From positions 473,475 to 537,474 of the forward strand of contig BCIJ01000013.1 of NCBI GenBank assembly GCA_001599935.1: DNA of 64,000 nucleotides, read 5' to 3'. This document shows, piece after piece, positions 1,421 through 11,402 of this stretch. The notes under the pieces were generated by a model that was given only the letters and a program-made list of their open reading frames with translations, was not told the origin of the DNA and searched no databases. The stretch's first letter is position 1. Every line of letters begins with the position of its first letter. A program made the translations under genes and the position numbers. Origin of the DNA: Holtermannia corniformis. Lineage: Eukaryota > Basidiomycota > Tremellomycetes > Holtermanniales.

Positions 1421-4400
1421 ATGACAGTGCCCGCGCCAGCGTACGCGCCAGAGCGCACAGACCTCTTGCGCTGGCGTCTGATCGTAGGCCACGACTCGCA
1501 CGGCCAGCACAAGTGGGTCTACCTCTCTCAAGAGCACAGCAAAGACTGGAAGCAGTCCAAGGAGGAAAAGTACTGGCTCGGCTTGGAGGTGGTAAGCCGT
1601 TGATCAGCACAGACTCGGCGTGGCGCTGAATAGAGTATAGGATGCTCCAGAGCTCGACAAGCCTCGAACGGCTCTGGACGCGGCGCGATCGGGTTTCGAG
1701 TTTGTAAAGCAGATCCAGTCAACCGACGGCCACTTTTCTGCCGAGTATGGCGGTCAGTCCCTTGCTCGGTTACAGCTAGGTGACTTATACACGTCAAGGC
1801 CCACTCTTTCTCCTCCCTGGCCTCGTCATCGCCTGCTACGTAACGGGCTGCACCCTGCTGAACGAGCAAAAGATTGAAATCAAGCGCTACCTACTCAACA
1901 AGCGCCGGAAAGAGGGCGGCTGGGGCCTGTCAGTCCTTGCACTCTCCCATCCCTGCTACACCAGTTGACGTCAGTAGCCACACTGCAGGCACCCCGACCG
2001 TCTACGGGACCGTCTTGAACTATGTCACTCTCCGTCTGCTCGGCATGGGACCCGATGAAGGTCCAATGACAGACATCAGAGCGCTGATCCATGAGATGGG
2101 TCCGTTGCCGATGAAACTGCCAAAGTACAAGACTGATCTCGGATGACCAGGCGGCGCAACGGGGATCCCGACATGGGGCAAGGTCTGGCTCAGCATCCTT
2201 GGCGCCTACGACTGGGCGGGTGTGAATCCGACACCACCCGAGATTCTGTCAGTGCTAGGGGGATGCCGACCGAAGCGCTGCTGATGCTACCTATAGGCTG
2301 CTGCCGAAATGGGTGCCATTCCACCCGCGGCGCTGGGTACGTGAAGCACTTGCACCAAACAATCACGCTGACCTCGTTGCAGTGGGTTCACGTCAGGGCT
2401 GTGTGTAAGTGGCTGCCCCAGTCTGGTCAATACGCCGAGCTCACGACTTGCAGACTGGCCGATGAGCTATCTCGCCGGCCGGCGTTACGTCGCAACCCCG
2501 ACCCCGCTCGTGTACGCCCTTCGCGAGGTGAGCGCATGCTGTGCCTCAAACTAGGCTGACTCTGCCAGGAATTGTACACACAGCCCTACGCGTCCATCCA
2601 TTGGTCGCGCCAGGGCGACAACATCTCGCCTCTGGACGAGTACAGCCCTCACCACCTCGTGCTCCGGATCGCAAACGTCTTTCTGCGCATCTACGAATTC
2701 ATCATCACCTTGCCCTTGATCGCTGCTATCCTGCCCATCCGGCAATGGGGTCTCGCGGCCGCCCTGAACCTCATCACCATGGAAGACGAGGACACGGGCT
2801 ACCAGACGATCGGACCCGTCTCCAAGTCGTTCAACATGGTCGCGCGCTACGCGGCCTCTGGCGGCGAGAGCGAGGCGTTCAAGCAGCACGTGGCCAAGAT
2901 CGACGATTTCCTCTGGCTCGGCAAAGACGGCTTGATGATGTGCGGCACCAACGGCTCCCAGCTCTGGGACCTCGCGTTCCTAGCGCAGGCCGTAACGGAA
3001 TCGGGCCTGGCCGAGGACCCGGCGAACCGCGAGTGTATGACGGGGATGCTCGATTGGCTCGATAAAGCGCAGATCAGGACCAACTCGAAGCATTACCCGC
3101 ACGACTTTAGGCATCCCACAAAGGGCGCCTGGGCGTTTTCGACGCCCGAACAGGGATACACTGTGAGCGACACGACGGCCGAAGGGCTCAAGGCCGCGCT
3201 TGCGCTTCAGGGTCTCAGGTCGGTCACCGTCTGTGCTGGAGCGGACCCAACTCGCTGACGACGGTTCACAGTTATACTAAGAAGCCGATCACGATTGATC
3301 GTCTTAGAGACACCGTCGATATCCTGCTCTCGATGCAGAACCCAAATGGCGGGTTCGCGAGCTATGAGCTCGTCCGAGGCTCGCACAAGCTCGAGTGGTT
3401 GAACGCGGCTGAAGTCTTTGGTGAGCATTCCGCGGAGCCGAGGTGGCATAGTTGACGTTGAGACGCATAGGCAACATCATGACAGATTTTTGCTACCCCG
3501 AGTGCGTTGCGTGGATGTAGGGTGTGGGAGCTGAAGCGATGTGCAGGTGCTCGACTTCGGCGTTGTCGGGTCTTGTCCATTTCACCAAGCATGATCCTGG
3601 ATACCGCGCCGACGAGATCAAGTGTGTCGTGTGGCGGGCTGAAGCGAATGGAAACTGAAGTGTATCAGGCGGACGGTCAACAAGGCGATCAAGTACATTC
3701 ACGACGTCCAGCGTCCAGACGGCTCGTGGTATGGCTCATGGTGAGCGCGTTACCGCAGCAAGCGCGACGCTAACGCACCCAGGGGCATCTGTTTCACCTA
3801 TGCTACGATGTTTGCTCTCGAATCACTCTCGATCGCCGGTGAGACGTTCGCCAACTCTGAGCGTGTACGTCGAGCGTGTGCGTTCCTGGTCGACAAGCAG
3901 ATGGAGGATGGCGGTTGGGGCGAGACGTACATGGTGAGCGTTATGGTGCTAGTGTGAGCAGGCGCTGACGCTACTTGCCTAGTCGTGCGTGACGGGTGTG
4001 TATGCACAGCACGAGCAGTCGCAGGTCGTGCAGACGGCTTGGAGTGTGCTGGCATTGATCTATGCCGATTATCCGGATAAGGAGGTCGTCAAGAAGGCAG
4101 TCGTGCTAATCGTTAGCCGACAGCAGCCGGTGAGTGCATCCCGCGAGCAGCGAGAGGGACTGACTCGCACAGGATGGACGTTGGGAACAAGAGGACACCG
4201 AAGGCATCTTCAACAAGAATTGCGCCATCGACTACCCCTGTGAGTCTCATCGCCCTAACGTAAGCCTCGCTGACGTTTGCTAGTCTTCAAACTGGTCTTC
4301 ACAATCTGGGCGCTGGGTCGAGCCGACAAATACCTTGGACCGCAACATAATACCCTGGAGCTGCACCAGGCCTCGTCGACATCATCCTTTGAATCGGACG

Positions 4401-6609
4401 AGCTTGTCCCTGACCCCGACTCTGTATTGATCTTGCATGCGTCCGAGACGGGCAACGCGCAGGATGTGGCTGAACGCGTCGGGCGCGAGTTTAGGCGGCA
4501 CGGCGCGCGCGCAGGCGTCATGGGCATGGAGGAGTTTGACATTGTGAGTCAACAGGAGCCATAGAGGAGATGTAGCCCTGTTCATGCCGTGTAGAGTGAG
4601 CTCCCACACGTCCCCCTCGTCGTCCTCGTCACCTCGACCCATGGTCGCGGCGATCCACCTCCTGCCATGAAACCGTTATGGTCGGCTCTGCTACGAGCGT
4701 CGTTACCACCGGATATCCTGGAGGACGTCAGCTTTGCGCTGTATGCGCTCGGTGACTCGGGCTATGAAAAGTTTTGCTACGCCGGCAAGATCTTGGCACG
4801 GCGCATGGTCGGCTTGGGCGCTTTGATGGTGAATGAGCCTGCGTGGGGTGATGAACGGGCGCCAGATGGGTGGGTCTGTTCTTTGCCAGTCGAGCAGGCA
4901 GCTGATACCGCGTCAGGATTGAGGAGACGTTCATTCCTTGGATGGCATCGACGTTGGAGGAGATGCTGCCAATGCTGCCGCCCCCGCCACCGCAATTCGT
5001 GCCGCCGCCGACGTCTGATATCCCACAGCCTCTGTACGCACTCGTCCCTGTCGCCAAGCATGCGCATGTCGACGGCACACGGACCGTGAGCGAGCACCGG
5101 CTGCCGCAAGGGTGGTCATGGGCGACGCTCAAGTCGGTGCAGCGTGCGACCAAGGAGGGCTGGTATCAGGATGTCCAGCAGATCGAGCTCGAGCTCGATC
5201 CATCATTGTGGGTCGAGCCGTTGGTCTGTCTCAGAGCTAACACTGTGCCGCAGGGATGTTTACCCGGCTGGTGCGATTTGCTCGTTGCAGCCTGAAAACC
5301 TAGCTTCCGAAGTCGACGCCTTTCTCGAGCTCGCAGGATTAGAGGCCGAAGCAGACCGATCGGTCCGTGTACAGTCCCTGTCGCCTGATCAGCCGCTCCC
5401 CGCGCACCTACCAAGCGCAGACACGACGACGACACTCCGGCGACTCTTGACTTTGCATCTGGATCTCAGGTCACCACCGCGCAAGAGCTTCTTCGAGTGG
5501 ATGCGGCGATTCACGACGAGTGAGATGGAGCGGGAGCGCCTGGATGAGTTCCTTGCGGATCCAGTGAGTACCACCCGCGGCGTGCAGTGTACAGACGGTT
5601 GACGATTTATGGTAGGATGAGATCCACGACTATGCGACCCGACCGCACAGGACGGTCTTGGAGACTCTGGGCGATTTCAGAGAGACAAAGATCCCGCTGT
5701 CGCATGTACTCGAAGTCTTCCCGCCGCTGCGGAGGCGGCAGTTCTCCATTGCCAGCAACGGAGCGGTAGGCATTTGGTGATGTCAAAGGATCGCACTGAC
5801 TAGGTGGCCAGACGCACCCAGGGGTTGTGCAGCTACTGGTCGCCATTGTACAGTACCAGACAAACCTCAAGGTCCCACGGCAGGGTTCTTGCACCTCATG
5901 GTTGAAGACCTTGAAGCCCGGTTGGTCCATTCACCTGACAACGGCGAAGCTGACAACGGCACAGGTGACAAAGTACCTTTGCGGCTAGAGGCGCCCACCT
6001 TGTTCTTGCCAACCGCCAAGGACACTCCCGTCATCCTCGTTGGTCCAGGCACCGGGGTCGCGCCCATGCGGTCCTTTATCGAAGAGCGGGTCAGGCAAGG
6101 TGAAGGAAAAAGTATGCATCTCACACTGGTATGCCTTGTGCTGATTCTGGGCCCTAGACACTGTTCTGTACTTTGGCTGCCGGAGTGCCGAGCAGGATCT
6201 ATTCTACGCCGCAGAATGGGCTGCGTACCGCGCGCAAGGGGTGCGCGTCCAAGTAGCTGCATCAAGGGATCAAGTAGGTCGGCCTCAAGTCGCGGTGTAT
6301 GTGCTGACACCTTTAGGAGGACAAGGTTTACGTGCAGGATCTCATCAAGCGCGACGCGTCGCTCATCAAGGAGTGGCTGGTGGACCGTAAAGGCAGCGTC
6401 TACATTTCGGGGTGCGTTGCACCTTGTGGCTGCATGTGGAGCTGACACTAGGCAGATCATCCAACGCTATGCCCAAGGCGGTACGTGCCGCGCTCGCGTG
6501 GTGCATCTCGGTCGAGTCTGGCGAGGGCGACTTGACCGAGGAGGACGCGGTGGCGTATGTGACGGATGTCTTTGAGTGTGGTACGAGGGGCGGCGAGGAG
6601 AGTTGGTAG
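1421..6609 (+). CDS. ERG7-TAH18: Lanosterol synthase fused to an NADPH-dependent diflavin reductase (ERG7-TAH18)
   Basis: The first half is oxidosqualene cyclase, which folds 2,3-oxidosqualene into lanosterol in sterol synthesis. Evidence is the start [33 protein letters not shown], repeated QW motifs (QSTDGHF, QNPNGGF, QRPDGSW, DGGWGE), catalytic Asp in VSDTTAE near 3169, and the usual C-terminal [20 protein letters not shown]. There is no stop codon. The exon 4284-4543 runs from this C-terminus through a roughly 25-residue linker into an FMN flavodoxin domain ([45 protein letters not shown]), then the FAD/NADPH module ([37 protein letters not shown]) and a C-terminal Trp. Every TAH18 exon joins in frame. 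Total is roughly 1,400 residues. TAH18/NDOR1 normally passes NADPH electrons to Dre2 for cytosolic Fe-S assembly. Fusion to ERG7 is seen in the sequence; its purpose is unknown. Confidence 0.9.
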
Positions 6610-6854
6610 GCATGAGCATGATTGCATCTGTATGTAGCATAGCAAAGGCAGCGCCATGACTGCGACGCCAAAGGAACGCCAAAACTAGTTTGCGCGCGCC
6701 GCAGTCTGGTTCTCGCATGCCGTCACTTGTCCGCCACTTGAAACCAACGACCAACCCGACTTTCGGACGAGCTCACCAGTCGTCGGATGTGACGGCGTAC
6801 CAGCGCTCGCTCCAATCCAGCAGCTGACCGATGCTACAGAGCGTCTGACTCGCA

Positions 6855-9007
6855 ATGTACATACCAAACGTCCCGCGGCGTACGGTGCAGCTTGGACTGT
6901 TTGGGATAGTGCCAACACTCTTGCTTGTGTATCTATACTTTGTCCCGTCGGGGCGCTACATCTTTCCAAGCGGCGAGGGACCTACCGACGGCTTGCTTGA
7001 TGTATCTGTGGAGGAAAGCCGGTGGAAGGATCGATGCGAGGTCAACCATGACTTTGTGGACGAGTACGGCCGGGCAAACTTGAGGATGAGCCGAGGGTAC
7101 GAGGGTGGGTGTAGCCGGATGGCAGTGACCAAGGCTGATCCACCACCCAGGTTCGCACCGAAGAATGCGTCAGGCGATCCAACGAGCGATGCGCGGGGAG
7201 AAGATCACTTTGTCTGCGATCGGAGGTTCAGGTTGGCTTCGGATCGCTTCCTCGGCTCAGAGCTGACATGGGCAGTGACAACGGGACATCATATCGAAAA
7301 GAACGAAATCTGGTTTCACGTCTTGTCTGAATGGTTCAAGGACGCTTTCCCAACTGCCAAAGTCGAGGAGCGCAATGGTGCTGCCCCCGGTGAGTCGTGC
7401 ATGGCAGACACGTTGCTCGCTGACTTGGGCGACAGCGACCGGCTCGGATTATTTCTCGTAGGCTTCACCTTGACCCAAGGTGTTCGTCGTCTGACCAACA
7501 CGCGCCAGTTTCTGCTTTCCTCTGCATATCCCTCCTACATCCGACATTATTTTTATAGAACTGGCTATCAACGACGAACCGCTGCCAGAGCATGTGGAGA
7601 ACATGGAGAATCTTTTGCGAGGCCTGTTGGCGCTACCGCAGAAGCCTGCGGTCGTGCTTGTCGAGGTACTGGCGTTCAGTACCGGTGGCATGGGCGGTGG
7701 CGGTGGACGCTACCATTTGTAAGTGTGCCGCGAGTGACAGGGTTTGCTAATGTTTGCGCCAAGGCCTGTTGCTCAATACTATGGTATGTTGCGTGCCGTG
7801 TGACCTAAGCGATGCTGACTGCTGCTGCAGACGTGCCAATAATCAAGTGAGCCATGGCTCGTGGACTCTTGCCTCTGCTTACCGTGAAGCCAACGACTTC
7901 CCCTTGCCGCGCACTTGGCCCGGCATCCTCAGCTACTCGGCCCATACTTTACCATCAAGTGAGCTCGCATCAGCACCGTGTGCATTGGCTGACCACATAT
8001 AGTGGCTGGGGCTACCCCGACACACGCCACATCAACAGCATCGGCCACCGCGACATGGCCATGCTGCTCGCCAGCTTTATCCACGACGTCACTTGTGAGA
8101 TGCTCGCCGAGCCCCACTTTAGCCTAGCAACGGCGCCGGAGATGGTGTTTGCCGGTGACACTGATTGGTTGGCGTCGTGGACTGGTCCCGAAGAGCAGGT
8201 TGTTGCACTGGGAATCGAGCAGAGCGTCCAGTTGCCCGCTCAGGCCAGGCAATGGCGCATGAAGGGAGAGGATGATGAGAGTATACTGATGCCGGGACGG
8301 TGGATGGCAGAGGCCGAGATGGGCATGATCCCGCGGGTGAGTGATAGCGCCGAGACGGTCGCCATGGCGCTGACGCCAATCGCAGTTGCGAGCGCTCGAA
8401 GGCTGGGATCCAAGCCTCGGCCATATCACCGAGCCCTTTCACCCAACATGCCTGAGTACTCGCTCACCTTATCCGACCTACAACCTGACGCCGACCGAGA
8501 ATGACGGCTGGTCAGTACCACGAGCTGCCCAGCGTGCGCGTCGCTGACACCTAGCAGGGAAGACTGGGTCCACCCGGAACACATCGACAAGCCGTACCTC
8601 GTCGCGACCCGAGTCGGCGCCAAAGTCACGTTCGAGCTTGAAACGCATCTCGGTGTTGTTAAAATGTACTCGTTGCGCTCAAAGACGTTTGGTCTTGGCT
8701 CGGTCGAGTGCTGGGCCGACGACGAGCGCGATCGGGCCGTCAAGGTGCCAGGCTGGTGGGACAATGGCAGCGTGTGAGTCTCGCACGGGCGCTTGGACCG
8801 AGCTCAGATTGACAACGCGCAGTAACATTGGACGGTTCGCGACGATCCGCACCGACCTCTCACCGGGCAAGCACCTGATCAGCTGTGAGCTGCTTGAAGA
8901 GACGGCTGATCCGGACGGCGGTCACGGCTTCCGGATGATTTCAATGATGAGGTGCGATCCGAGTGGCATGTCTGACTAGAATCTGACGCGTTGTGCTCAG
9001 CATGTAA
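6855..9007 (+). CDS. Membrane-anchored SGNH (GDSL-type) hydrolase
   Basis: A short basic N-terminus and one transmembrane segment (VQLGLFGIVPTLLLVYLYFV) suggest a type II membrane protein with a lumenal or extracellular esterase domain. SGNH blocks appear after splicing: IGGSVTTGHH with the likely nucleophile Ser (exon join near 7214-7275), ERNGAAPATGSDYF with the Asn/Gly block, IELAINDEP near 7558, LPVAQYYDVPII, and a late Asp-His block PDTRHIN followed by IGHRDMA near 8015-8060. A C-terminal beta-rich extension (VGAKVTFELETHLG to the end) follows. The last codons sit on a tiny exon ending TAA at 9005-9007. Similar fungal proteins are annotated only as SGNH hydrolase-type esterases; cell-wall or capsule glycan deacetylation is a guess. 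The substrate is unknown. Confidence 0.75.
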
Positions 9008-9279
9008 CGTGCATCCTGTAGCGACCGTAGAGCATAGACGTGGATGCAGACTGTGACGCAAAGTCGGGCGGCAAACCCCGTCGCTGGCGGCGTTTCGGCG
9101 ATTCCGCGAAAATGTTCGCTCCCGGCCACTGTCCGTTTTTGAGCCAAGCTGGTCGCGGTCCTGCCTCACCAAAAGGACTCGTTCGTGCGTATCCCTCGTC
9201 GGCACTGCTTCCAGCTCACAGCATCCAGCATACCCTCCCCTCCGCCACCTCCCTCCACTCCATCTGCGAAAACTACAAA

Positions 9280-11402
9280 ATGTCTGCCGAGGACGTCTAC
9301 GAGGGTGCCATTGGTATCGGTCAGTGTTGCAACCGGTCGAGCTGCCGGGTCGGGGCTGATGGCAGCAACAGACTTGGGTACCACGTACTCGTGTGTCGGT
9401 GTCTGGCAAAACGACCGCGTCGAGATCATCGCCAACGGTGCGTTGGCGAGCTCGAGGTGACGGCCGCTGATGAGCTGTGCAACAGACCAGGGCAACCGTA
9501 CCACGCCTTCTTACGTTGCCTTCACCGAGGGTGAGCGTTTGATCGGTGATGCCGCCAAGAACCAGTCGGCGATGAACCCTCGCAACACCGTGTTCGACGC
9601 CAAGCGTCTGATCGGCCGCCGGTTCGACGACCAGGACGTCAAGAAGGACCGTGTCCACTGGCCGTTCTCGGTCATTGACAAGGACGGTTCCCCGTTCATC
9701 GAGGTCGAGTACCTCGGTGAGAAGAAGACGTTTTCGCCTCAGGAGATCTCGGCCATGGTCCTCACCAAGATGAAGGACGTTTCAGAGGCCAAGCTCGGCA
9801 AGACTGTCAAGAAGGCCGTCGTCACGTAGGTTTCTATACGGCGAACGGCTCAACGCTGACGGCGATAGCGTCCCCGCCTACTTTAACGACTCGCAGCGTC
9901 TTGCTACCAAGGACGCCGGTGCCATTGCTGGCCTCGACGTTCTCCGCATCATCAACGAGCCCACCGCGGCCGCCATTGCCTACGGTCTTGACCAAAAGAC
10001 CAAGGAGGAGAAGAACGTTCTCATCTTCGACCTCGGTGGTGGTACTTTTGATGTCTCGCTCCTCTCGATCACCGGTGGTGTCTTTGCCGTAAAGGCCACG
10101 GCCGGTGACACCCACTTGGGCGGTGAGGACTTTGACAACACGCTCCTCGAGCACTTCAAGGCCGAGTTCAAGCGCAAGAACAAGCTCGACATTTCCGAGG
10201 ACCCCCGTGCCCTCCGTCGTCTCCGTTCGGCCTGTGAGCGTGCCAAGCGCACCCTCTCGTCGGTCACCCAGACCACTGTCGAGGTCGACTCGCTTTTCAA
10301 CGTGGGTTGCATCTAGATAATGCCTAGTCGAGACTGACCTTCGCAGGGCGTCGACTTTTCTGCCAACATTACCCGTGCCCGTTTCGAAGAGATCAACGCG
10401 GTCGCGTTCAAGTCGACGATTGACCCGGTCGACAAGGTCCTCAAGGACTCCAAGATCCCGGCCGCCAAGGTCGACGACATTGTCCTTGTCGGTGGTTCGA
10501 CCCGTATCCCCAAGATCCAGTCGCTCGTTTCAGAGTTCTTTGGTGGCCGCCAGCTCAACAAGTCGATCAACCCCGACGAGGCCGTCGCCTACGGTGCCGC
10601 CGTCCAGGCCGCCGTCTTGACTGGCCAGACCTCGGACAAGACTGCCGACTTGCTCTTGCTCGACGTTGCCCCGCTTTCGCTCGGTGTCGCCATGCAGGGT
10701 GACGTCTTTGGTGTCGTCCTCCCCCGCAACACGCCGATCCCGGCCAACAAGTCGCGCACGTTCACCACGGTCGAGGACAACCAGACCCAGGTCATGTTCC
10801 CCGTCTACGAGGGTGAGCGCACCCAGTGCCGTGACAACCGTCTCCTCGGCGAGTTTGAGCTCTCGGGTATCCCTCCTATGCCCCGTGGCCAGGCCGAGCT
10901 TGTGTGCACGTAAGTATCACACGATTGAGTGAGAACCCGAGCTGATAGCACCAGCTTTGAGGTTGACGCCAACGGTCTCCTCAAGGTCTCTGCCCAGGAC
11001 CGTGCTTCGGGCCGCAAGGCTCAGATCTCGATCCAGAACTCTGTCGGCCGTCTCTCGTCGACCGAGATTGAGCAGATGATCAAGGACTCGGAGTCGTTCC
11101 GCGAGCAGGACAAGGCGTTCTCGGCCCGCCACGAGGCCAAGTCGGAGCTCGAGTCGTACCTGCACACTGCCGAGCAGACGTGAGTTGCCAGTGCTGCCTT
11201 TGCTCCAACGCTGACCGCACCCAGCCTCACATCACCCGAGTTCTCGTCCAAGATCAAGCGGGGGAACAAGGCCGCGGTCGAGGCCGAGATTGCCAAGGCG
11301 CTCGAGGTGCTCGAGCAGGAGGACTCGACGGCGGACCAGATCAAGCGCGCGCTGCTCGGCTGCAAGCGGAGCCTGCAAAAGGCCATGGCCTCTGCTCGCT
11401 AA
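9280..11402 (+). CDS. SSB1: Cytosolic Hsp70 of the ribosome-associated SSB type
   Basis: Hsp70 chaperone with an N-terminal ATPase domain and C-terminal substrate-binding domain. Visible signatures are GTTYSCVGV (phosphate loop), [27 protein letters not shown] and the linker region [16 protein letters not shown]. It resembles fungal Ssb rather than Ssa: it has [24 protein letters not shown], a short C-terminus ending QKAMASAR with no EEVD, and the Ssb-like stretch [12 protein letters not shown]. Spliced length is about 615 residues, the usual Ssb size. Introns lie near 9320-9370, 9440-9487, 9827-9866, 10302-10346, 10911-10951 and 11181-11224. Ssb binds nascent chains at the ribosome with the RAC co-chaperones. 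I saw no clear heat-shock element upstream, which fits a constitutive gene. Confidence 0.93.

Follow-up and report, generated by a model that had tools for sequence, protein, structure and literature searches.

An open reading frame joining an oxidosqualene cyclase (Erg7) to a Tah18-type diflavin reductase in the basidiomycete Holtermannia corniformis

Introduction

In the cytosolic assembly of iron-sulfur (Fe-S) clusters, the usual partner of the diflavin reductase Tah18 (NDOR1) is Dre2, to which electrons pass from Tah18, while the cyclisation of oxidosqualene, carried out in sterol synthesis by Erg7 (lanosterol synthase), requires no electrons. The subject of this work is a locus of the yeast-like fungus Holtermannia corniformis (Tremellomycetes) in which both proteins are encoded in a single reading frame, located at positions 1421-6609 of a 64,000-nucleotide stretch (the window; positions 473,475 to 537,474 of contig BCIJ01000013.1, assembly GCA_001599935.1, forward strand), whose coordinates are used throughout.

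Natural proteins in which a diflavin reductase is fused to its acceptor are P450BM3 and the nitric oxide synthases (PMC2257935). In yeast, Tah18 carrying green fluorescent protein (GFP-Tah18) is diffuse, cytosolic and functional, and cells in which Dre2 and Tah18 form one protein show full viability (PMC2633045). Yeast Erg7 is one of the twelve proteins shared by every lipid-droplet proteome in one comparison and has its activity mainly at the droplet (PMC4076087), and in Cryptococcus neoformans ERG7 and TAH18 are given as two separate genes, CNAG_01129 and CNAG_06558 (PMC6282196).

Structure of the gene and its junction

The exon model was made by hand, exon by exon, with both protein families in view. 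Splicing of its 26 exons gives a coding sequence of 4020 nucleotides (nt), which encodes 1339 residues, with an estimated mass near 150 kDa, and ends in a stop codon at 6607-6609; the 25 introns are all GT-AG, measure 41-53 nt and leave the frame open throughout. The predicted polypeptide begins with a complete oxidosqualene cyclase (Erg7), continues through a linker of 40 residues and ends with a diflavin reductase of the Tah18/NDOR1 type, which is complete too, and all five Pfam domains found in a scan of the spliced protein exceed their curated cut-offs. The features are the following, FMN standing for flavin mononucleotide, FAD for flavin adenine dinucleotide and NADPH for reduced nicotinamide adenine dinucleotide phosphate.

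1421-6609, + strand: whole fusion gene, 26 exons, 1339 residues plus stop; hand-built splice model
1421-4321, + strand: oxidosqualene cyclase (Erg7) half, residues 1-717, exons 1-17; PF13249, PF13243, TIGR01787
4284-4543, + strand: exon 17, from the cyclase end across the linker into the first part of the FMN domain; no stops in the coding frame
4322-4441, + strand: linker, residues 718-757, rich in Ser, Thr, Glu and Asp, between WALGR (713-717) and SETGN (from 758)
4348-4350, + strand: out-of-frame TAA near the usual Erg7 end of relatives, one of seven out-of-frame stops in exon 17
4430-4941, + strand: FMN-binding flavodoxin domain, residues 754-891; PF00258 (Flavodoxin_1), 102.8 bits, cut-off 25; coordinates derived from the exon table
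5122-5901, + strand: FAD-binding domain, residues 952-1163; PF00667 (FAD_binding_1), 106.7 bits, cut-off 32.3
6036-6486, + strand: NADPH-binding domain, residues 1194-1299; PF00175 (NAD_binding_1), 54.4 bits, cut-off 22

Across exon 17 the coding frame is free of stops, the remaining two frames having one and six. From the last conserved cyclase motif, WALGR, to the FMN P-loop, SETGN, there are 40 residues, and about 120 nt lie between the conserved cores of cyclase and reductase. Within the stretch scanned (3701-4600), none of the three frames has an ATG beginning at any position between 4175 and 4436 inclusive, the flanking ones being at 4174 and 4437, and the next in-frame ATGs after the junction (4520 and 4526) are both past the FMN P-loop. 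The spliced protein likewise has no methionine between residues 633 and 784, an interval that includes the P-loop. Therefore, an AUG-started reductase with its whole P-loop would need a long piece of the cyclase, of at least 120 residues. The single Erg7-Tah18 reading frame, first noticed in an earlier reading made from the letters of the DNA (the sequence-only reading), is confirmed as an observation: the polypeptide runs without a stop through the junction, the junction exon lies at 4284-4543 as had been claimed, the other exons stay in frame in the 26-exon model, and the ATG that the reading had failed to see for a separate reductase is indeed absent.

The length of the linker can be compared with the ends of unfused relatives. 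Cyclases end 7 to 27 residues past WALGR, with a median of 8, in 21 of the 23 close relatives (the other two, both from Botryobasidium, do not match the motif), and the chain of Tah18 relatives begins 7 to 39 residues ahead of the P-loop (26/26), so that a normal Erg7 tail and a normal Tah18 head, taken together, would come to about the 40 residues of the linker. A descent of the linker from the acidic Tah18 heads of Filobasidiales was tried as well and is unsupported, shuffled linkers having done as well in 413, 82, 451 and 321 of 1000 trials with the four heads. The TAA at 4348 begins 27 nt beyond WALGR and is possibly the old ERG7 stop, displaced from the frame by one indel, or else a product of chance; the first of these readings is uncertain because there are seven stops in the other two frames of the exon, chance being as likely. 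Even as the original stop, this TAA leaves the reductase without a start codon.

The two halves

In the cyclase half, SQHop_cyclase_N (PF13249) is found at residues 80-373 and SQHop_cyclase_C (PF13243) at 387-718, both above the Pfam cut-off. Among the NCBIfam models, which are designed for prokaryote annotation, TIGR01787 reaches 652.2 bits (cut-off 322.7), while TIGR03463 (2,3-oxidosqualene cyclase) falls short of its cut-off, with 574.8 against 851, and so does the model for hopene cyclase, with 248.4 against 431.1. An alignment of residues 1-735 with 26 chosen relatives has 171 invariant positions, 167 of which are retained (the changes are Y323L, N332D, P430S and M677V); each relative, when left out in turn, keeps 94-100%, which places the fusion protein in the normal range. 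The D-x-TAE motif, which we take to be the site of the catalytic Asp of oxidosqualene cyclase, is present as DTTAE, which a minority of the fetched proteins share: of the 61 that match the pattern, 5 have it and the other 56 have DCTAE. This half thus appears to belong to Erg7/lanosterol synthase and probably keeps oxidosqualene cyclisation.

The FMN, FAD and NADPH domains of the reductase half stand in the order of Tah18/NDOR1. Among the matches listed, full-length ones have 54-60% identity to Tremellomycete proteins, many of them named NADPH-dependent diflavin oxidoreductase 1, and the identity to the other flavoproteins of its own genome is 28-30%. When residues 750-1339 are aligned with 24 chosen relatives, 82 of the 85 invariant positions are retained (the exceptions being G842A, R970Q and M1327V), again in the normal range, since the relatives left out in turn keep 88-100%. 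What counts against the Tah18/NDOR1 assignment is that the best matches of this half in the PDB are P450 reductases, the sole NDOR1 chain there, 4h2d, being the FMN domain alone (165 residues, 4e-30). The domain order, the matches and the invariant positions nevertheless agree with the TAH18/NDOR1 type proposed in the sequence-only reading, and NADPH-FAD-FMN electron transfer to Dre2 is probably retained. A separate protein with a free N-terminus, a trait of Tah18/NDOR1, is not what the fusion gene encodes; this loss of a free N-terminus is the novelty, and it concerns architecture, not chemistry.

Two Tah18-related database proteins have other domain compositions. In P0153, from Cryptotrichosporon argae, PF00929 takes the place of the flavodoxin ahead of the FAD and NADPH domains of Tah18, which probably reflects a faulty gene model, and in P0232, from Amanita inopinata, a PF02201 domain follows Tah18.

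Gene copies and partners in the genome

The genome searched comprises 20.2 Mb in 55 contigs, and the search scores the best candidates only, so that an absence is to be taken as "not found". The cyclase domain has one match in the genome, which is the fusion gene, and all 11 matches of the cyclase query fall inside it. Nine of the 13 matches of the reductase query are also in the fusion gene, and the other four, at 28-30% identity, belong to three genes that were classified from their domains and by eye: a P450-reductase-like gene on contig C26 (flavodoxin and FAD domains), a sulfite-reductase-alpha-like gene on C14 (FAD domain, reading frame) and a sulfite-reductase-beta-like gene on C38 (flavodoxin and NIR_SIR_ferr). 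The sequence-only reading had called for a search for separate ERG7 and TAH18 genes, and no second copy of either was found among the scored candidates. For Dre2 there is a single CIAPIN1 match, at 85.7 bits against a cut-off of 22, in whose reading frame the cysteine motifs can be seen, and squalene-epoxidase-like (Erg1-like) and Erg28-like genes are present too. Chance is not a good account of the fusion, because both halves are complete and conserved, about 120 nt lie between their cores and neither gene was found a second time.

Relatives and novelty

The protein database searched contains about 5.8 billion proteins, and the results apply to annotated proteins of the lengths that the search admits. 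With the full-length query, 418 matches were obtained among 7991 candidates scored, and the best 120 are all cyclase-domain proteins covering at most 56% of the query; a 500-residue junction query gave 2778 matches among 7996 candidates, the best 120 covering at most 58%. Since a fused protein should outscore the best 120 of both searches, there is no fused relative among the matches listed, and none of the 336 fetched proteins carries both the cyclase motif and the flavodoxin P-loop motif. The closest Erg7 and the closest Tah18, among the matches listed, are separate proteins, as are ERG7 and TAH18 in the fungi and animals known to the sequence-only reading, which advised searching basidiomycete proteomes with the junction. 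It also knew of no description of an Erg7-Tah18 fusion, and none was found in the literature searched, most subscription papers lying outside its reach; in PMC12016551 the text searched makes no reference to Erg7. The architecture is therefore new as far as these searches reach, although its parts come from two well-known families and do not make a new kind of enzyme.

Other long cyclases were seen among the database proteins. In two chytrids, Phlyctochytrium bullatum (P0028, 1556 residues) and Blyttiomyces sp. (P0037, 1449 residues), an oxidosqualene cyclase is joined to a PF01501 domain; the pairing is the same in two genera and may be a real fusion. Those of Aspergillus varians (P0053), Dactylonectria estremocensis (P0120) and lichen fungi (P0069 and P0090), which contain CS/SGS or ABC transporter domains, are perhaps merged gene models.

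Origin of the fusion

When 27 cyclases and 25 reductases were placed in trees, the cyclase half and the reductase half both fell with the Tremellomycetes, and a horizontal transfer of either half, which was considered, is unsupported for this reason. Their exact placement differs, the cyclase being sister to Tremellales plus Trichosporonales and the reductase standing with Filobasidiales at 89/97 (the Phaffia reductase branch is very long). The trees suggest a deep lineage.

ERG7 and TAH18 lie on contigs that differ in length in all nine Tremellomycete species with unambiguous data, that is, those where each of the two listed clusters is represented by a single member on a single contig: Kwoniella newhampshirensis, K. 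shivajii, Kwoniella sp. DSM 27419, Cryptococcus sp. DSM 104549, Kockovaella imperatae, Naematelia encephala, Cryptotrichosporon argae, Phaffia rhodozyma and Naganishia adeliensis. The weak points of this set are the TAH18 of C. argae, a doubtful model, and the short scaffolds of N. encephala and N. adeliensis. Among the species left out of it, whose clusters comprise several members or contigs, the contigs also differ in Tremella mesenterica, K. shandongensis and Kwoniella sp. CBS 9459, and they are equal in length (4733269) in Vanrija pseudolonga, where linkage is possible. Locus tags are distant in Naganishia liquefaciens (6830 and 2827), N. adeliensis (002763 and 005285) and C. neoformans (CNAG_01129 and CNAG_06558; PMC6282196). 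Because of the different contigs and the distant tags, a rearrangement is a more probable origin than read-through from one old neighbour into the other, although the genes may be adjacent in some near relative. Such a rearrangement would have joined ERG7 and TAH18 into one frame, and in the process the stop codon of ERG7, the DNA between the genes and the start of TAH18 would have been lost. In C. neoformans ACO1 (CNAG_01137) is near ERG7 by number, and here none of nine aconitase matches is on contig C13; synteny through the aconitase genes gave no indication of which locus received the other gene.

Neighbouring genes

Two observations on the flanks of the gene were made by eye. At about 490-569 of the window, on the - strand, there is a possible first exon (MADQAKYASPQEFDTDL...) that may share its promoter region with the fusion gene. 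Downstream, at 6849-9830 on the + strand, a protein with an N-terminal stretch resembling a membrane anchor is followed by an HSP70-like gene.

Proposed function and alternative explanations

We consider it probable, with some reserve, that this is a true gene fusion under one promoter, in which both halves have kept their ancestral chemistry and the cyclase serves as membrane anchor of the reductase. The N-terminal half would cyclise oxidosqualene, and the C-terminal half would move electrons from NADPH through FAD and FMN to Dre2 for cytosolic Fe-S assembly. The cyclase would act as a passive tether, anchoring a normally cytosolic electron donor at the surface of the endoplasmic reticulum (ER) or of lipid droplets, and soluble Dre2 would come to the reductase; the single promoter would fix the amount of both activities. 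By analogy with yeast, where GFP-Tah18 and Dre2-Tah18 work, an N-terminal partner should be compatible with Tah18 function. From the sequence of the gene we infer its translation and use as one chain, the membrane tethering, the retained activities and any benefit.

Several points weigh against this interpretation. The gene model is a prediction from genomic DNA, the end branches are long in both trees (0.51 changes per column for the cyclase and 0.50 for the reductase) and the cyclase has DTTAE in place of the commoner DCTAE. Moreover, no second species with the fusion is among the matches listed in the two database searches, so its long-term maintenance is unsupported. The regulation of the separate genes in C. 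neoformans also argues against joining them. Its expression data are given in the order wild type in low versus high iron, grx4 versus wild type in low iron, grx4 versus wild type in high iron, and grx4 in low versus high iron; the values are 0.81, 3.20, 1.82 and 1.41 for TAH18, 1.66, 0.43, 0.54 and 1.32 for ERG7, and 0.50, 3.10, 2.41 and 0.63 for DRE2 (PMC6282196, Table 2). TAH18 and ERG7 are opposite in three of the four comparisons, some of the changes being small, while DRE2 follows TAH18 in three of four (PMC6282196). These opposite responses imply that a shared promoter would carry a cost, the fused gene either losing independence or making separate products. The same data contain an observation on iron control, namely that loss of the iron regulator Grx4 raises TAH18 and DRE2 transcripts and lowers that of ERG7 at both iron levels (PMC6282196).

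Separate products from one locus are the main rival explanation, according to which Erg7 and Tah18 would be made as two proteins, whether through early polyadenylation, through alternative splicing, from an internal or non-AUG start, or by cleavage in the linker. This would preserve separate regulation as in C. neoformans, the linker, rich in Ser, Thr, Glu and Asp, may be open to cutting, and cryptic GT...AG pairs occur in exon 17. These pairs, however, are such as would occur by chance and their donor hexamers are absent from the model's 25 donors, and no AUG is available for a reductase with a whole P-loop short of including the cyclase piece described above, so we regard this explanation as rather unlikely. 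An assembly chimera or a sequencing error, in which two genes are misjoined or an indel masks a stop, would agree with the different contigs of the two genes in the nine relatives, and a one-base error near the TAA at 4348 could hide a normal Erg7 stop, chance being equally likely there. But in a chimera the true 3' end of ERG7 and 5' end of TAH18 would be expected elsewhere, and neither was found in the genome; the join would also need to fall between the last and first conserved motifs, on the same strand and in frame. An indel, for its part, leaves the reductase still without an ATG, and some 120 nt is scant room for a terminator and a promoter. Such an artefact is a very remote prospect.

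As for what the fusion might do, it could be a catalytic unit whose reductase half feeds oxidases of the sterol pathway on site (squalene epoxidase, lanosterol demethylase, cytochrome b5-dependent steps). In favour of this are the position of Erg7 between Erg1 and Erg11 in the pathway and the membership of Tah18 in the same diflavin family as P450 reductase, the source of its best PDB matches. Against it, the P450-reductase-like gene on C26 suggests that the usual donor is not missing, Dre2, the usual acceptor of Tah18, is encoded in the genome, and the reductase half is closest to Tah18/NDOR1 (60% to the best listed) and far from the other flavoproteins of the genome, all of which makes the proposal highly improbable. 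Of the two functional ideas of the sequence-only reading, electron supply to sterol oxidases is the weaker, given the P450-reductase-like, squalene-epoxidase-like and Erg28-like genes; it is possible and not needed. The other idea, that Fe-S assembly is tied to sterol synthesis through location or co-expression, is possible. A working two-pathway enzyme, that is, a Dre2-facing NADPH source at the ER or lipid-droplet surface that feeds sterol oxidases or co-regulates Fe-S assembly and sterol synthesis, replacing the opposite responses of Cryptococcus, is clearly unlikely, and a function beyond the sum of the two parts is unproven.

The interest of the passively tethered fusion that we favour lies in its two components, a membrane and lipid-droplet enzyme and a cytosolic one, from unrelated pathways, which now share a gene, no spare copy of either having been found. 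Were the fusion used as a single chain, the cell's supply of Tah18 would work while anchored to a sterol enzyme, which raises the questions of whether the electron donor of cytosolic Fe-S assembly must diffuse freely and of how a cell copes when gene fusion overrides regulation. The fusion is also a marker to be sought in unannotated relatives.

Comparison with known systems

The cyclase half resembles the Erg7 proteins of Cryptococcus and Kwoniella, being 68% identical to that of C. neoformans (P0001) and up to 81% identical, over the C-terminal part of the cyclase, to that of K. newhampshirensis (P0241), but these are separate proteins of about 680-740 residues. The reductase half shares with Tah18/NDOR1 the FMN-FAD-NADPH order, 60% identity to the protein of Cryptococcus sp. 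DSM 104549 (P0121) and, with several relatives, a Glu-Glu-Ser-Trp end; unlike it, the close Tah18 proteins compared have a free N-terminus (26/26), and the yeast protein is cytosolic (PMC2633045). The long database cyclases P0028 and P0037 (PF01501) and P0053 and P0120 (CS/SGS) also add a second domain to a cyclase, but they are without the flavodoxin motif and some may be merged gene models.

P450BM3 and the nitric oxide synthases are likewise larger enzymes that end in a C-terminal diflavin reductase, but in them the partner accepts electrons, whereas here it is a cyclase without a redox domain in the Pfam scan. In the laboratory-made yeast Dre2-Tah18, Tah18 also works behind a joined N-terminal partner, although this protein is artificial and the partner is Tah18's own electron acceptor (PMC2633045). 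Finally, the metC-mevalonate kinase fusion of basidiomycetes is, like Erg7-Tah18, a natural fusion of a sterol/terpenoid enzyme with an enzyme of another pathway, but it joins other enzymes and is described from 12 basidiomycetes (PMC3342255), compared with one genome for Erg7-Tah18.

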